36,826 bases of DNA from Thiotrichaceae bacterium (lineage in GTDB: Bacteria > Pseudomonadota > Gammaproteobacteria > Thiotrichales > Thiotrichaceae). Of the stretch, positions 2,421 to 35,017 are shown one piece after another; positions within the stretch are counted from its first letter, which is position 1; every line of letters begins with the position of its first letter. The notes beneath the pieces are model-generated. The model ran no database searches, had not been told where the DNA came from, and saw only the letters and a list, made by a program, of their open reading frames with translations. The position numbers and the translations under genes were made by a program. Location of the stretch: contig JALSJN010000086.1 of NCBI GenBank assembly GCA_026989335.1, forward strand, positions 1 through 36,826. Reading direction: 5' to 3'.

Positions 2421-3503
2421 TTAACTTTCTTCACTTAATGCTGAAAGCTGTTCAGCTTGGTATTCATTAATTAACGGTTCAATAATTTGATCTAAAGAAC
2501 CCGACATAAATTCATCTAACTTATACAAGGTTAAATTAATTCGGTGATCAGTCACTCGCCCTTGCGGAAAGTTATAAGTACGAATTCGATCAGAGCGATC
2601 ACCTGAACCTACCAGAGATTTACGCTCCTCAGCCTGTTCATTATGTTGTTCTTGGCGTTGCCCTTCTAAAATTCTCGCTGATAATACGGATAAAGCCTGT
2701 GCTTTGTTTTTGTGCTGTGAGCGTTGATCTTGGCATTCCACCACTATCCCAGAAGGTAAATGGGTAATTCGTACCGCCGAGTCTGTTTTATTAACGTGTT
2801 GACCACCAGCACCTGAGGCACGAAACGTATCAATGCGTAAATCACTACTTTTAATATCAGGTGCTTCAACCTCATCAGGCTCTGGCATAACCACGACGGT
2901 AGCGGCAGAGGTATGTACGCGACCTTGCGATTCAGTTTCAGGTACGCGTTGTACGCGGTGCGCACCAGATTCAAATTTTAATTTAGAATACACATTAGTG
3001 CCAACAATGCGGGTAATAACTTCACGGTAACCGCCTTTTTCACCCATGCTTTGGTTTATTATTTCAACTTTCCAGCCCTGTCGTTCGGCAAAACGTGAAT
3101 ACATGCGGAATAAATCCCCAGCAAAAATTCCTGCCTCATCACCACCTGTACCGGCACGAATTTCTAAAAAGGTGTTGCTGTGATCATGCGGGTCTTTAGG
3201 TAGTAGTAGTTTTTGTAAATTGCTTTCAAACGCTTCTAAAACGGGCTTTAAGGAATTGATTTCCTCTTGTCCCATTTCTTTCATTTCAGGGTCGCTGAGC
3301 ATTTCTTTTGCGGTTGCTAAATCTTCCTGTGCTTGCTGGAATTTTTGAAACTCTTGTACTAAAGGCTCTAGCTGGCTGTATTCCATTGACAACTGACGAA
3401 ATTGGTTTTGATCCGCCATTACATCAGGTTCTGCTAGCAGCCCTGCAATTTCTTCATGGCGATCTATAAATGATTCGAGCTTGGTAATTAGAGATGCTTT
3501 CAC
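2421..3503 (-). CDS. prfA: Peptide chain release factor 1 (RF1)
   Basis: RF1 terminates translation at UAA and UAG codons. The 360-residue protein has the catalytic GGQ (residues 233-235, in [15 protein letters not shown]) and a PxT codon-recognition tripeptide, here PET (about 188-190, in [15 protein letters not shown]), a known RF1 variant. The start is GTG at 3503 and overlaps the hemA stop by four bases (GTGA), so translation is probably coupled to hemA. The only protein expected to methylate Gln234, PrmC, is encoded next downstream. Confidence 0.97.
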
Positions 3504-29201: not shown

Positions 29202-30722
29202 TTAACCATGTTGCTGTTGGCGTTTGTTAGCCGTTCCGATTCGCGCTTTTCTTTGTTTATTAAGTAATAAATCAAGGCTGCCGCGTTGTCCTGATTGTTC
29301 AAAATCTTTAAGGAGAGCTATTTTGACGGTTTTTTCTGCCATTTTGAAATCACTCAATAAGCTTTGATAGAGCATTTTATACAGCCGAGGTAGTGCAATT
29401 TTCCAGGTGCTGCCCGCTTCTTTATATAATGCATTGCTGAGCTGCATAAAGCGTTGAAAAGCTGAATCATTATTTTTTTTATTTCCTAACACCAAGGCTA
29501 AGGTATTTTTAAATCGCCCAGAGTTCGCGATCATATCCCAGTAGCGTGCAAAGCGTTGTACTTGTTGTAGCTCCATAAAGCTGATATCACGGGTGCTAAG
29601 TACGGTATAAGGTGGCGTTTGGCTATAATTCATCTGGTATTCTTGACTATGCCGATTAATGGGCGCACCGCGCAAACGTTTTAAAATACCCATTTGAATT
29701 TCTTGTGGATTGAGTTCTACTAATTGATCAAAACTCTTAGAAAAATTTTCTAAGGTATCGCTGGGAAGTCCAAAAATGAGATCAGTGTGTAAATGTGCTC
29801 CCGTATGCTTACGCAACCAGCGGATATTATCTTTGGTTTTTTGATTGTCTTGTTTACGGCTGATGAGCGTTTGAATATCTGGGTCAAAAGTTTGTACGCC
29901 AATTTCAAACTGTAAAGAATTTTTTGGAAAGCGTGTGAGTATGGCTTTAAGTTTATCGGGCAGATTATCAGGAATGACTTCAAAATGAAGGTATAAATCA
30001 TCCGTCATTCGTTCTAAGAAAAATTCTAAAATAGTGACGCTGTTGGCAACTTTAAGGTTAAAGGTACGATCAATAAATTTAAAGTTTCGTGCTCCGCGCT
30101 GAATTAGCTTATCCATTTCGACTAAGAAAGCACCTAATTCAAAGGGTTTAGAGGTTTTATCTAAAGAAGATAAGCAGAACTCGCACTTAAAAGGACAGCC
30201 GCGCGATGCTTCAACATAGATTAATCGGTTACGAATATCCTCATCATTATAAAAAATATAGGGTAGCTCTAATTGTTCTAAAGGAATAACCTCGCCATTA
30301 ATTACTTTATTTAGTGGTTTTCTATTGGCTAATATTTGTGTGCAAAGTTGGTAAAAGCTTGTTTCGCCCGCGCCTTGAATAATATAATCAGCATCATTAA
30401 CTACGGTGGGCTTATCCGGCAAGTGACTAACTTCTGGCCCACCTATGACCACAATTATACTCGGTGATATCTGCTTAATTAATTGTACTAACTCTGTAAT
30501 CTCACTGATATTCCAGATGTAAACACTGAGTCCAATAATCTTCGGTTTTAACAATAAAAGCTTTTCTGAAATATCAATGGGCCGTTCATGAATAGTGAAT
30601 TCAATGAGGGTGGTTTGGTGTTGCAACTCACCTAAATTGGCATACAAATAACGTAAACCAAAAGCACTGTGAATGTAACGTGCGTTGAGGGTGGTTAGGA
30701 TGATGTTAGTTTCTGAGCTAAT
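29202..30722 (-). CDS. B12-binding-domain radical SAM protein (DUF4080-type) with uncertain start
   Basis: The protein has an N-terminal cobalamin-binding Rossmann domain (KIIGLSVYIWNISEI, VIGGPEVSHLP), a radical SAM motif GCPFKCEFC (three cysteines spaced CxxxCxxC, at residues 151, 155, 158 counted from the TTG at 30647) and a C-terminal helical region of the DUF4080 kind. Such proteins are B12-dependent radical SAM enzymes of unknown substrate. The usual N-terminus, NIILTTLNARYIHSAFGLRY, is encoded in frame upstream of the first conventional start (TTG 30647) as far as a stop at 30726-30728, with no ATG, GTG or TTG. Either an ATT at 30722 (GGA eight bases upstream) is used, or an extra A near 30728 breaks a MDLTISSETN-like start. 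I extend the feature to 30722. Confidence 0.8.
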   Translation of the reverse strand: MSSETNIILTTLNARYIHSAFGLRYLYANLGELQHQTTLIEFTIHERPIDISEKLLLLKPKIIGLSVYIWNISEITELVQLIKQISPSIIVVIGGPEVSHLPDKPTVVNDADYIIQGAGETSFYQLCTQILANRKPLNKVINGEVIPLEQLELPYIFYNDEDIRNRLIYVEASRGCPFKCEFCLSSLDKTSKPFELGAFLVEMDKLIQRGARNFKFIDRTFNLKVANSVTILEFFLERMTDDLYLHFEVIPDNLPDKLKAILTRFPKNSLQFEIGVQTFDPDIQTLISRKQDNQKTKDNIRWLRKHTGAHLHTDLIFGLPSDTLENFSKSFDQLVELNPQEIQMGILKRLRGAPINRHSQEYQMNYSQTPPYTVLSTRDISFMELQQVQRFARYWDMIANSGRFKNTLALVLGNKKNNDSAFQRFMQLSNALYKEAGSTWKIALPRLYKMLYQSLLSDFKMAEKTVKIALLKDFEQSGQRGSLDLLLNKQRKARIGTANKRQQQHG

Positions 30723-30869
30723 CGTTTAAGTCCATTTTTTGATTTTTATAAACTAACATTTTGAATCATAAAAATCAGTTTAATGTTGTAAACAATAGTA
30801 TCACTAAGTTAGCTTATTATTATATAGAAATAAGCTAAATCATTGATTCATAACTCCTTTTAATTGGCC

Positions 30870-30883
30870 TTGATAAATATCAA
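30870..30883. promoter_or_regulatory. FNR/Anr box 1 (perfect TTGAT-N4-ATCAA)
   Basis: TTGATAAATATCAA matches all ten specified positions of the FNR consensus. It lies 30 bases (three helical turns, centre to centre) upstream of box 2, on the same side of the helix. Confidence 0.8.
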
Positions 30884-30899
30884 ATGTATTTTACGTGTA

Positions 30900-30913
30900 T
30901 TGATATAGATCAA
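30900..30913. promoter_or_regulatory. FNR/Anr box 2 (perfect TTGAT-N4-ATCAA) with class II promoter geometry
   Basis: TTGATATAGATCAA is a second perfect FNR consensus site. A TAAATAAT stretch at about 30933-30940 lies where the -10 element of a class II FNR promoter (box centred near -41.5) should be, giving a start near 30946 and a leader of about 70 bases before the FadL-like ATG at 31015. This predicts induction under oxygen limitation. An inverted repeat ATAGGTG (30921-30927) / CACCTAT (30953-30959) brackets the predicted -10. Confidence 0.8.
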
Positions 30914-31014
30914 TTAATAGATAGGTGTTGCTTAAATAATGATCAAAGGCATCACCTATAGACAATAAGGGTTACAAAGGATAAAGAGTAGCCTTAAACA
31001 CCAAGGAGAAAAAT

Positions 31015-32070
31015 ATGCAAAAAATGATAAAGCCCAGTTTGATCGCGGCATCAATAGTACTGGCTATCTCGGCACAACAAGCGGGTGCAACCAACGGCTA
31101 TGCTGCGCATGGTTTTGGTACGGTACAAAAAGCGATGGGGGGTACAGCAGTTGCTGGTAGTGACAATGCAATGAATATAGCTACAAATCCTGCATCCATG
31201 TCGATGGGTGAAAATAACTGGACTGGAGGATTGGAGTTATTTGTTCCTGATCGTGGTTTGGAACACTCAGGGAGAGCAGGAAATCAAAATAAACCTATTA
31301 GCGAATTTTTTCCACCGGGTACTTCTGGTAACTGGGCGCCAGGTGATACTGTTGGGGTCGACAGCGGTATTGATGGCCAGGTACTAAGAGCAAACGAAAA
31401 AAAGCAGTTTGTTTCACCCGAAGGCGCCTATCAAAAACACATCGGTAAAAAGTTTGCCATAGGTGTTGCGGTTTACGGTAACGGCGGGATGAATGCCAGT
31501 TACGATCGTCCTATCTTTTCACAAACCAATAAAACCAGCATAAACTTAGAGCAACTCTTTATCGCGCCAAGTGCTTCAATGAAGATTAACCCAAGACATA
31601 GCATAGGCGCTTCATTAAATTTGGTGTATCAACGTATTGATATTAAGGGCGTAGATGCCTTTAAACCTTTCAGTCGTAATCCGAATAGTTTATCGGATAA
31701 AGGCGTCGATAGTTCAACAGGTCTAGGTTTCTCAATTGGTTGGCAGGGTAAGGTTTTAGATCGGCTTACTTTGGGTGCAACGTATCGCAGTAAAGCGAGT
31801 ATGGGTAGATTTAAGAAATACAAAGGCTTATTTGCTGAACAAGGTAAATTTGATGTGCCAAGTATGATTACTATTGGTGCTTCGATGAAGGCTACGCCAA
31901 AAACTACAGTCGCGCTTGATATTGCACGAATCAATTATACCGATTCAAAATCTATTTCTAATAAAAACAATACTGCAGGTTTACAGCAACAATTAGTCGC
32001 ACAAAACTTCGGTGTTATTCCACCGGGTACAGCACTTCAAGGCCCCATGTTAGGAACACGGTTAAGATAA
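31015..32070 (+). pseudogene. OmpP1/FadL-family outer-membrane protein, 3' truncated at a gene-fusion junction
   Basis: A signal peptide (about residues 1-25, ending QQAGA-TNGYA) is followed by the OmpP1/FadL N-terminus HGFGTVQKAMGGTAVAGSDN and NPASMSMGENNWTGGLELF, then many barrel strands (IAPSASMKINPRHSIGASLN, TLGATYRSKASMGRFKKYKG, VALDIARINYTDSKS). The frame ends abruptly after ALQGPMLGTRLR, whereas the intact paralogue at 33554 continues with DGPGFGWDDQ and about 120 more residues of terminal strands ending in Phe. The last four to five strands are missing, so a stable barrel is unlikely. The sequence beyond about 32058 belongs to a Big_1/cytochrome gene in another frame. AGGAG precedes the ATG and two FNR boxes lie upstream. 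Confidence 0.8.
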
Positions 32071-32078
32071 CCGTTCAA

Positions 32079-33344
32079 TTGAAAGATGAAACTGGTAAGA
32101 ACCTCACTAAAGGAGGAGAGCAAGTGGTTCTTTCTTCGAGTGCCGGCTCTTTATCTAGTCTCGTCGATAATAAAGACGGCACTTATAGTGCAAATTTAAC
32201 CCATACAGAAAATAACAGCTCAGTTACAGTTTCTGCAAAAGTGGCAGGAAAAACAGTTGTTGATACCGCAAGAATTGGTTTTAAGGTAGCTCAAAATCAA
32301 CCCATGACAGCATTAGCCTCATTAGGTAAAAAAATCTTTGAAGATGAAAACCTATCCGTGCCAACTGGTCAATCTTGTGCATCCTGTCATGATTTAGATA
32401 GTGGTATAACAACGGATATCCGCGATACTAAAGAGACATCTGAAGGGGCAAGAAATGGAGTTTTCGGTGGTAGAAATACGCCTATGATTAGTTATTCAGC
32501 GCATACACCAAACCAGTTTTTTTTAGGCAAGCGTAAAGTTGGTGGACAATTCTGGGATGGTCGTACTGACTCATTAGAAGAGCAAGCACGTCAACCATTT
32601 CTTGATAAGCGTGAAATGAATAATCCCAGTAAAACTGAGGTTGTCCATAAAATTAGAAATGCCGTGTATGCGGTAGATTTTAAAACTGTTTTTGGGAATA
32701 ATGCTTTCAATGATATTGATAAAGCTTATGTACAAATATCACAAGCTATTGCCGCTTTTGAGCGTAGTGGACGTTTTTCTCCCTTTACTTCTCGATGGGA
32801 TAAAGAAATGGCTGATGGGAAAATGGACGGCGATGTGTTTACTGCTAGTGAAATGCGTGGCTTTCAAGCATTCAAAGAAGGTCGCTGCGATACTTGCCAT
32901 TTCACACCAGATAATTTATTAGGAGCTCAAGTATTCACCAATTTTGAATATGAAAATATTGGTACACCTAAAAACCCAAGCAATCCATTGTTAACTGCTG
33001 ATACCACCTTTATAGATTTTGGAGCAGGTAGCGCACCTGATGATCCTGAAAATGGGCCGCATTCGGTTAATCCTCCTAAAACAGGAAAAGGTATGTTTAA
33101 AGTACCCTCATTACGTAATATTGCTAAAACCGCACCGTATATGCATAACGGAATATTTAGTAATTTGAGCCAAGTTATTGATTTTTACAACGCAGAAACT
33201 GTTGTAGGAATTGATACAACAGCAGAAGTAGGTGATACGATTTCAGATGGTGGTCAATACTTTACGAATCTCTTTGAAACTACTCAGGAGAAAATTGATT
33301 TACGTGCATTTTTAGAAGCACTCACAGATGAAGGTTTAGAATAA
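32079..33344 (+). pseudogene. Big_1 domain plus MauG/cytochrome c peroxidase-like dihaem protein, 5' truncated
   Basis: The frame begins inside a bacterial Ig-like (Big_1/invasin) domain: TVKITVQLKDETGKNLTKGG, SSAGSLSSLVDNKDGTYSAN, and is followed by a dihaem cytochrome c peroxidase/MauG-like domain with CASCH (about residues 100-104) and CDTCH (about 270-274), plus FWDGRTDSLEEQARQPF and MFKVPSLRNIAKTAPYMHNG. The only start available is TTG 32079, within the Ig-like domain, and there is no signal peptide, so haem attachment in the periplasm would fail. In-frame codons upstream (NTVKITVQ) show that the original gene extended 5'. The 3' end looks complete. Unless a -1 frameshift joins it to the FadL-like gene, this is a non-functional remnant. 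Confidence 0.75.
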
Positions 33345-33553: not shown

Positions 33554-35017
33554 ATGCAACACAGCTTAAAAAAGACATTTTTAGCCCTATCAATTTCAAT
33601 TTGTTTGACACCTATAGCCTATGCTACCAACGGCCTTGCACCTACGGGGTTGGGTCAAGTACATAAGGCAATGGGCGGCGCTGCTGCTGGTAATCCGCAA
33701 AATACGACGACAATGATGACAAACCCTGCCGCAGGATCTTTTGTTGATAGTGGCTTTGATGTTGGTATAGAATTATTTCGACCTAAACGTACGGCTAAAA
33801 ATAATAGTGATTTTCAGCCGTCTGGAACTAACTCTCCTTCTCCTGATGCTCAAGGAGATCCTACTAACCCTCCCCCTTACGATACGTTAAACCCTCAGGG
33901 TACCTTGACTAAAGGTACTGAATATTCGGGTGATGGGAAAAAGAACTTTTTAATTCCTGAGTTTGCCTATAACCGTAACTATGGTGGCTTTTCAGTGGGT
34001 ATTTCGGCTTACGGAAATGGTGGAATGAACACCCAATATGATAAGTCTCCTGCCTTTGCAGCTGATGCTTTGGGTACGGTTCCAGTTGGAGGGATACCCA
34101 ATGGGCAAGGTGGTACAATTCCTGCTGGAACTACTGGAATACCTGTAGAAATTGGGGCCACACCGGATCATCAGCCCGACTCTGTATTTAATTTTAACAG
34201 TACCAAAACAGGGCCAAAAGGAACAACAGGGGTTAATTTGGAACAACTCTTTATAGCGCCCACAATTTCTAAAAAACTTAATGCAAAGCACAGTGTTGGT
34301 TTATCGTTAAATTTAGTTTGGCAGCGTTTTGAAGCTAAGGGCCTTTCGGCCTTAACCGCAGGGTCAACAAACCCAACAAAGTTTACCGATAATGGTAAAT
34401 CATCGGCAACGGGTATTGGTGCAACAATCGGTTGGATGGGGCAATTCAGTGACAGGTTTACGATGGGTGCTTCATATCGTTTAAAAACCAAAATGGGTAA
34501 GTTTAAAGAATATGCTGGCTTATTTCCTGATGGTGGCGAAATGCATGTTCCAGCTGCGTTAACAGTGGGTGCTTCCGCAAAGGTTACGCCAAGTACAACG
34601 ATAGCGGCAGACATTCAACAGATTTATTATTCAGATGTTGCAGCAACGGGCAATGCATTTAAGCCTAGTGGTTTTGGGGGTAAAGATGGACCGGGTTTTG
34701 GCTGGGATGATCAAACAGTTATCAAACTTGGTGTTAAGCAACAAATGGGTCAAAAATTAGCGATGCTTGCTGGCTATAATCATGGTGCTTCACCTGTTGG
34801 GCCAGAAGATACTTTTTTTAATGCTTTAACACCGGCAGTTGTTGAGGATCATCTTTCTCTAGGTTTTGAATATAAAGTGGGTAAAAACTCTGCAATTACA
34901 GGCTCTTACACGCACACCTTTAAAAATGAAGTTAAAGGTGATGTAGCTAAAGGCCAACAGTTTGACATTAGTATGGAGCAAAATGCTGCGGGGATAGGTT
35001 TTAGTAAAAAATTCTAG
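33554..35017 (+). CDS. OmpP1/FadL-family outer-membrane transporter
   Basis: A complete 487-residue outer-membrane protein: signal peptide (about 1-24, ending PIAYA-TNGLA), the family N-terminus TGLGQVHKAMGGAAAGNPQN and NPAAGSFVDSGFDVGIELF, multiple barrel strands, the DGPGFGWDDQTVIKLGVKQQ block and a terminal strand ending AGIGFSKKF. FadL-type barrels admit long-chain fatty acids and other hydrophobic compounds; the ligand here is unknown. It is a paralogue of the truncated gene at 31015, with an additional loop insertion rich in Pro, Gly and Thr (about 90-130 and 180-220). An AGGAG five bases before the ATG at 33554 decides the start over an upstream frame extension. A terminator follows. 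Confidence 0.85.
   Translation: MQHSLKKTFLALSISICLTPIAYATNGLAPTGLGQVHKAMGGAAAGNPQNTTTMMTNPAAGSFVDSGFDVGIELFRPKRTAKNNSDFQPSGTNSPSPDAQGDPTNPPPYDTLNPQGTLTKGTEYSGDGKKNFLIPEFAYNRNYGGFSVGISAYGNGGMNTQYDKSPAFAADALGTVPVGGIPNGQGGTIPAGTTGIPVEIGATPDHQPDSVFNFNSTKTGPKGTTGVNLEQLFIAPTISKKLNAKHSVGLSLNLVWQRFEAKGLSALTAGSTNPTKFTDNGKSSATGIGATIGWMGQFSDRFTMGASYRLKTKMGKFKEYAGLFPDGGEMHVPAALTVGASAKVTPSTTIAADIQQIYYSDVAATGNAFKPSGFGGKDGPGFGWDDQTVIKLGVKQQMGQKLAMLAGYNHGASPVGPEDTFFNALTPAVVEDHLSLGFEYKVGKNSAITGSYTHTFKNEVKGDVAKGQQFDISMEQNAAGIGFSKKF

Follow-up and report, generated by a model that had tools for sequence, protein, structure and literature searches.

Two perfect FNR boxes are found in tandem upstream of fadL1, a FadL-type gene of a Thiotrichaceae bacterium that is truncated in the assembly (GCA_026989335.1). 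The window, i.e. the entire 36,826 nt stretch of DNA analyzed (contig JALSJN010000086.1), has two perfect matches to the FNR consensus in total, and these are the two boxes. The preferred reading, to which we assign a probability of roughly 0.6, is that the boxes constitute a rightward FNR-dependent promoter and that the fadL1 gene behind it was truncated, most likely by a deletion in this lineage that also removed the 5′ part of a MauG-like gene. This kind of promoter is already well known; here it appears to be an ordinary FNR promoter that is specific to the lineage and is located before a truncated gene.

The distal box, TTGATAAATATCAA (a palindrome, counted once), is at nt positions 30870–30883 with its centre at 30876.5, and the proximal box, TTGATATAGATCAA, is at positions 30900–30913 with its centre at 30906.5. 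Both display the full palindromic FNR-type consensus TTGATNNNNATCAA (TTGATN4ATCAA) without a mismatch. The centres are 30 bp apart, which is about three helical turns. A sequence-only reading of this DNA had proposed two perfect boxes at this spacing, and both the sites and the distance are confirmed. Weak box-like sites mean little here, since imperfect matches are in excess in the window (71 sites with two or fewer mismatches compared with 37 expected).

The genome is represented by an assembly of 2.46 Mb in 86 contigs, which is 94.86% complete and 4.22% contaminated. It has 15 perfect sites, compared with three for a reversed control pattern. Five of these are inside open reading frames and ten are outside (the one at the ccoP start is counted as outside), a distribution with P of about 8e-6 at an assumed non-coding fraction of 15%. 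Among the sites outside of open reading frames are those that precede coxB, a PPi-phosphofructokinase gene and a thioredoxin-like gene, one at the ccoP start region and one between a cytochrome c gene and engB.

Tandem perfect boxes, 10–40 bases apart, are present at 12 places in 10 of the 63 genomes of the family, and the reversed tandem pattern at none in the 63. At seven of the 12 places the boxes adjoin nirK (copper nitrite reductase), nirS (cytochrome cd1), a norC-like gene (a label that is our own reading of a Pfam cytochrome c match), ccoN or napC/napF. The other five places are the window itself, a molybdopterin oxidoreductase, a CysJ-like flavoprotein, an unassigned one in genome G082, and one within an open reading frame of genome G014, which is probably due to chance. 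The spacing of the boxes at nirS in genome G007 is identical to that of the window pair. In keeping with the proposed link of the boxes to low-oxygen control, tandem boxes in the family mostly adjoin genes of low-oxygen and nitrogen-oxide respiration. In Thiotrichaceae, tandem perfect FNR boxes are a clean marker for promoters of nitrogen-oxide and cbb3 respiration, the reversed pattern being absent from the 63 genomes.

These counts also bear on whether the boxes are chance palindromes in AT-rich intergenic DNA. The stretch is 33% G+C and the boxes are not conserved, but the absence of the reversed tandem pattern from the 63 genomes argues against this, as do the shuffles, and chance is highly improbable. 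Perfect boxes occur at a mean of 0.1 per shuffle of the whole window (100 shuffles). With dinucleotide shuffles of the 298-bp intergenic region, at least one box is found in 38 of 20,000 and two boxes in none of the 20,000, and 15 sites placed at random in the genome are expected to give 0.005 pairs within 60 bp. The two boxes are a genuine tandem FNR site with promoter-like spacing, specific to this lineage.

An FNR regulator is encoded in the genome, which has eight HTH_Crp_2 matches. The FNR-type regulator L001 (contig C17) aligns over 228 residues to a solved FNR, 5cvr, which is its best PDB match (E-value = 2e-51). All four cluster cysteines (three N-terminal and the fourth) and the sequence VET.SR of the E..SR helix are aligned in register with 5cvr; we take these cysteines and the recognition helix to be the residues that matter for FNR identity. 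The NCBIfam Fnr score of L001 is 226.7 bits, just below the cut-off of 228. A search of the genome for fnr had been suggested as a check on the promoter, and L001, with the four cysteines and the helix, is a positive answer.

The boxes might instead be read mainly by another CRP/FNR-family protein, DNR-like or FixK-like, and the signal would then be nitric oxide or another one, not oxygen. The eight HTH_Crp_2 matches are in keeping with this, and in Cocleimonas flava (G003; L120/L130) and in G007 (L123/L131) a DNR-like gene is flanked by two tandem-box promoters, those of nir and norC-like genes. The G003 copy of the DNR-like protein, which is the copy compared, has DNR (3dkw) as its best PDB match (E-value = 1e-33). 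However, the best match to the C. flava protein in the window's genome is 24% identical with a score of 28.9 bits, thus no clear DNR orthologue was found, and L001, the FNR-like protein, carries the complete set of cysteines. Control mainly by another member of the family appears unlikely.

The best candidate −10 hexamer is AATAAT at positions 30935–30940 of the forward strand. It matches TATAAT at five of six positions and sits within TAAATAAT, the element named in the sequence-only reading. The first base of the hexamer is 28.5 bp from the centre of the proximal box, which places this box at about −40.5; the distal box is at about −70.5 and the predicted start is near 30947. A sequence that resembles a ribosome-binding site, AAGGAGA, is at positions 31003–31009 of the same strand. 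FNR is centred at −41.5 ± 4 in 19 of 23 directly activated E. coli promoters with a known start, and at −40.5 in some (PMC3688515).

The −10 element alone is weak, since about 6% of shuffles have a five-of-six match at one of the four class II offsets. At offsets 27.5–31.5, a −10 match of at least 4/6 is present in ten of the 17 box-gene pairs, and when the 17 pairs are pooled the mean match by offset has no peak at the class II offsets. A family-wide rule of class II geometry is rejected on this ground, and the missing peak also weighs against the preferred reading. Because of the 6% chance level and the flat pooled profile, class II geometry for the proximal box, with its predicted start, is considered plausible only.

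We infer that at low oxygen an FNR dimer with an iron-sulfur cluster would bind the proximal box, some 40 bp upstream of the start, and activate RNA polymerase. The distal box, further upstream, may add to or tune this activation.

The direction of the promoter has to be considered, as a B12-binding radical SAM gene (DUF4080) is divergently oriented at positions 29202–30716 of the reverse strand. DNA homology to G001, the closest relative found, reaches 30716, and the 5′ end of the gene is approximate. The boxes are palindromic and about 150–200 bp from this 5′ end, and could conceivably serve the radical SAM gene. However, the distance fits neither class II nor a class I position of −61.5, the −10 element and the ribosome-binding-site-like sequence face fadL1, and the same gene in G001 is without boxes. 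Service to the radical SAM gene is very unlikely.

An imperfect inverted repeat at positions 30921–30959 flanks the −10 element. The arms, ATAGGTGTTGC (30921–30931) and GCATCACCTAT (30949–30959), pair at 10 of 11 positions and correspond to ATAGGTG/CACCTAT, which had been read as the site of a second regulator or as an RNA hairpin. Neither reading is upheld. When the region is shuffled 300 times, 84 of the shuffles contain at least one equally good repeat, and the pattern with 7-base arms occurs at five places in the 63 genomes compared with 12 for the reversed control. As a second operator the repeat is thus at chance level and is not enriched in the family. As a hairpin it is rejected because the first arm precedes the start predicted near 30947 and would stay untranscribed. 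The repeat is probably due to chance. A perfect 10-base inverted repeat, TTAGCTTATT/AATAAGCTAA, is located upstream of the boxes at window positions 30809–30838; shuffled sequences often contain repeats this good.

The fadL1 open reading frame is at positions 31015–32070 of the forward strand and has a translated sequence of 351 aa, compared with 418–486 aa for the orthologues. The Toluene_X domain is covered to position 284 of 421. The aa sequence matches the orthologues up to G347 and is followed by four more residues to its end. The orthologues have about 130 further residues, which take them up to the closing strand (comparison with the G005 orthologue), and fadL1 does not encode a complete barrel to the C-terminal strand.

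A MauG-like di-haem cytochrome frame is at positions 32070–33344 of the forward strand (CCP_MauG, E-value = 6e-35) and displays two CXXCH haem motifs, CASCH (32376) and CDTCH (32886). Its scores for NCBIfam MbnH and MauG are below the cut-offs. The frame lacks a start codon, an export signal and the initial part of an Ig-like domain, and it extends into the fadL1 DNA. The homologue in genome G031 (517 aa, with an Ig-like domain, and with an N-terminus that is lipoprotein-like as judged by eye) aligns only from its residue 84, at window position 32052. Of the 98 positions of the Invasin_D3 (Ig-like) profile, the window frame is matched only from position 29 onward, compared with position 4 in G031. 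Because the fadL1 homology stops and these alignments start late, the break is placed at 32055–32067: FadL homology extends to 32055 and MauG homology begins at 32055–32067. A further MauG-like homologue in the genome (L119, G000:C78:30465–31505) has one TAG inside the matched stretch.

A FadL-MauG fusion or a frameshift is rejected, as the two sequences are in different frames, joined at the break, and the FadL homology simply stops where the MauG homology starts. No other stop or frameshift was noticed in either frame up to the break. The break is a deletion or an assembly join, of which a deletion in this lineage is most likely. It may be an assembly error in view of the completeness and contamination of the assembly. 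If so, there would be an intact fadL1 and a separate intact gene for the MauG-like lipoprotein, and the promoter would control a working FadL-type transporter. The incomplete assembly in 86 contigs and the two frames, which are otherwise open up to the break, are consistent with a join. However, the missing halves of both genes are found on no other contig among the 86, the only match to the FadL tail in the window is the intact fadL2, and the two homologies overlap by at most about a dozen bases. An overlap of this length is too short for the usual k-mer join. An assembly join is considered less likely.

We infer that the break is biological. The 3′ end of fadL1 and the 5′ end of the MauG-like lipoprotein gene would have been lost together, most likely by deletion in this lineage, and as a consequence the promoter would now feed a truncated outer-membrane barrel. 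The switch may control little, since both fadL1 and the cytochrome gene that follows are cut short in the assembly. The intact fadL2 is at positions 33554–35017 of the forward strand and has a 92% identical orthologue in G001, a genome of the same genus; the 209 bp preceding fadL2 has no box up to one mismatch. The earlier view, that the boxes place a FadL/MauG-like cytochrome locus under oxygen control, is thus partly supported. The promoter part of it holds. The gene part does not in the sequence as assembled: fadL1 is cut short, start and export signal are missing from the MauG-like frame, and the intact fadL2 is without a box.

In G001 the radical SAM gene directly adjoins the fadL2 orthologue; the interval that separates the two genes contains no fadL1, no MauG frame and no boxes. 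A search with an alignment found five fadL1-type loci, where a scan with fadL1 alone found none. The loci are in G003 (C. flava DSM 24830), G005, G007, G020 and G070, the first three of which belong to the genus of the window; relatives include an uncultured Cocleimonas and Thiotrichaceae metagenome-assembled genomes. No box, up to one mismatch, precedes any of the four fadL1-type genes counted (G003, G007, G020 and G070); the G005 gene has 23 bp of upstream DNA and was left out of the count. The box is thus not kept before orthologues. Its absence from all four and from the G001 interval weighs against the preferred reading.

The same is seen with other fadL genes. At the 28 of 30 fadL2-type loci that gave a start there is no perfect box, and a single one-mismatch box is present in three; three of the 28 had less than 400 bp of upstream DNA. 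No box was found before the G006 fadL, one of the two loci outside the 28, or the G079 copy (135 bp read). That other genomes of the family have a copy of the promoter is rejected: a DNA search gave only matches of 25–67 bases in five of the 62 other genomes, and none of these was at a fadL place identified there, except for one match at a distance of about 7 kb on the contig of the G001 fadL2. Among the best-ranked open-licence literature, no study of fadL regulation by FNR in Thiotrichaceae was found.

In G003, G007 and G020 the fadL1-type gene is located between tgt and folD. In the window's genome tgt, a 175-aa gene and folD are present at this place with no match to fadL, thus a fadL1 remnant there is rejected. 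A 660-bp gap at this place has a single perfect FNR box (L163, G000:C75:36000–48000). A tentative and rather doubtful scenario is that, in this one lineage of the Cocleimonas group, the fadL paralogue absent from tgt-folD moved behind a newly acquired tandem FNR promoter of the denitrification type and was later lost or mis-assembled. If true, uptake of hydrophobic compounds would have come under oxygen control in a family of sulfur oxidisers, before the fadL gene was lost again or mis-assembled. The window would be a rare case of a tandem FNR promoter before an outer-membrane transporter gene.

The E. coli class II FNR promoters narG, dmsA, yfiD and focA-pflB are similar in having a perfect or near-perfect TTGATN4ATCAA at about −40.5 to −41.5 (PMC3688515). 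Unlike these, the window has a predicted start, two perfect boxes 30 bp apart and a truncated gene. E. coli ompW also encodes an outer-membrane barrel and has two FNR sites, at both of which FNR acts (PMC4886647); however, its activating site is at −81.5 and its repressing site at −126.5, and OmpW is not a FadL protein. Also close are the tandem-box promoters of nirK, nirS, norC-like, ccoN and nap genes in Thiotrichaceae, which have two perfect boxes 10–40 bases apart, with the identical spacing at nirS. They differ in that they drive respiratory genes, with a DNR-like gene adjoining in G003 and G007.

In G031 the intact MauG-like homologue is followed by an AhpC/TSA-like gene, and some 200 bp upstream of the latter is a box identical to TTGATATAGATCAA (contig C38, L076 positions 3469–3482).
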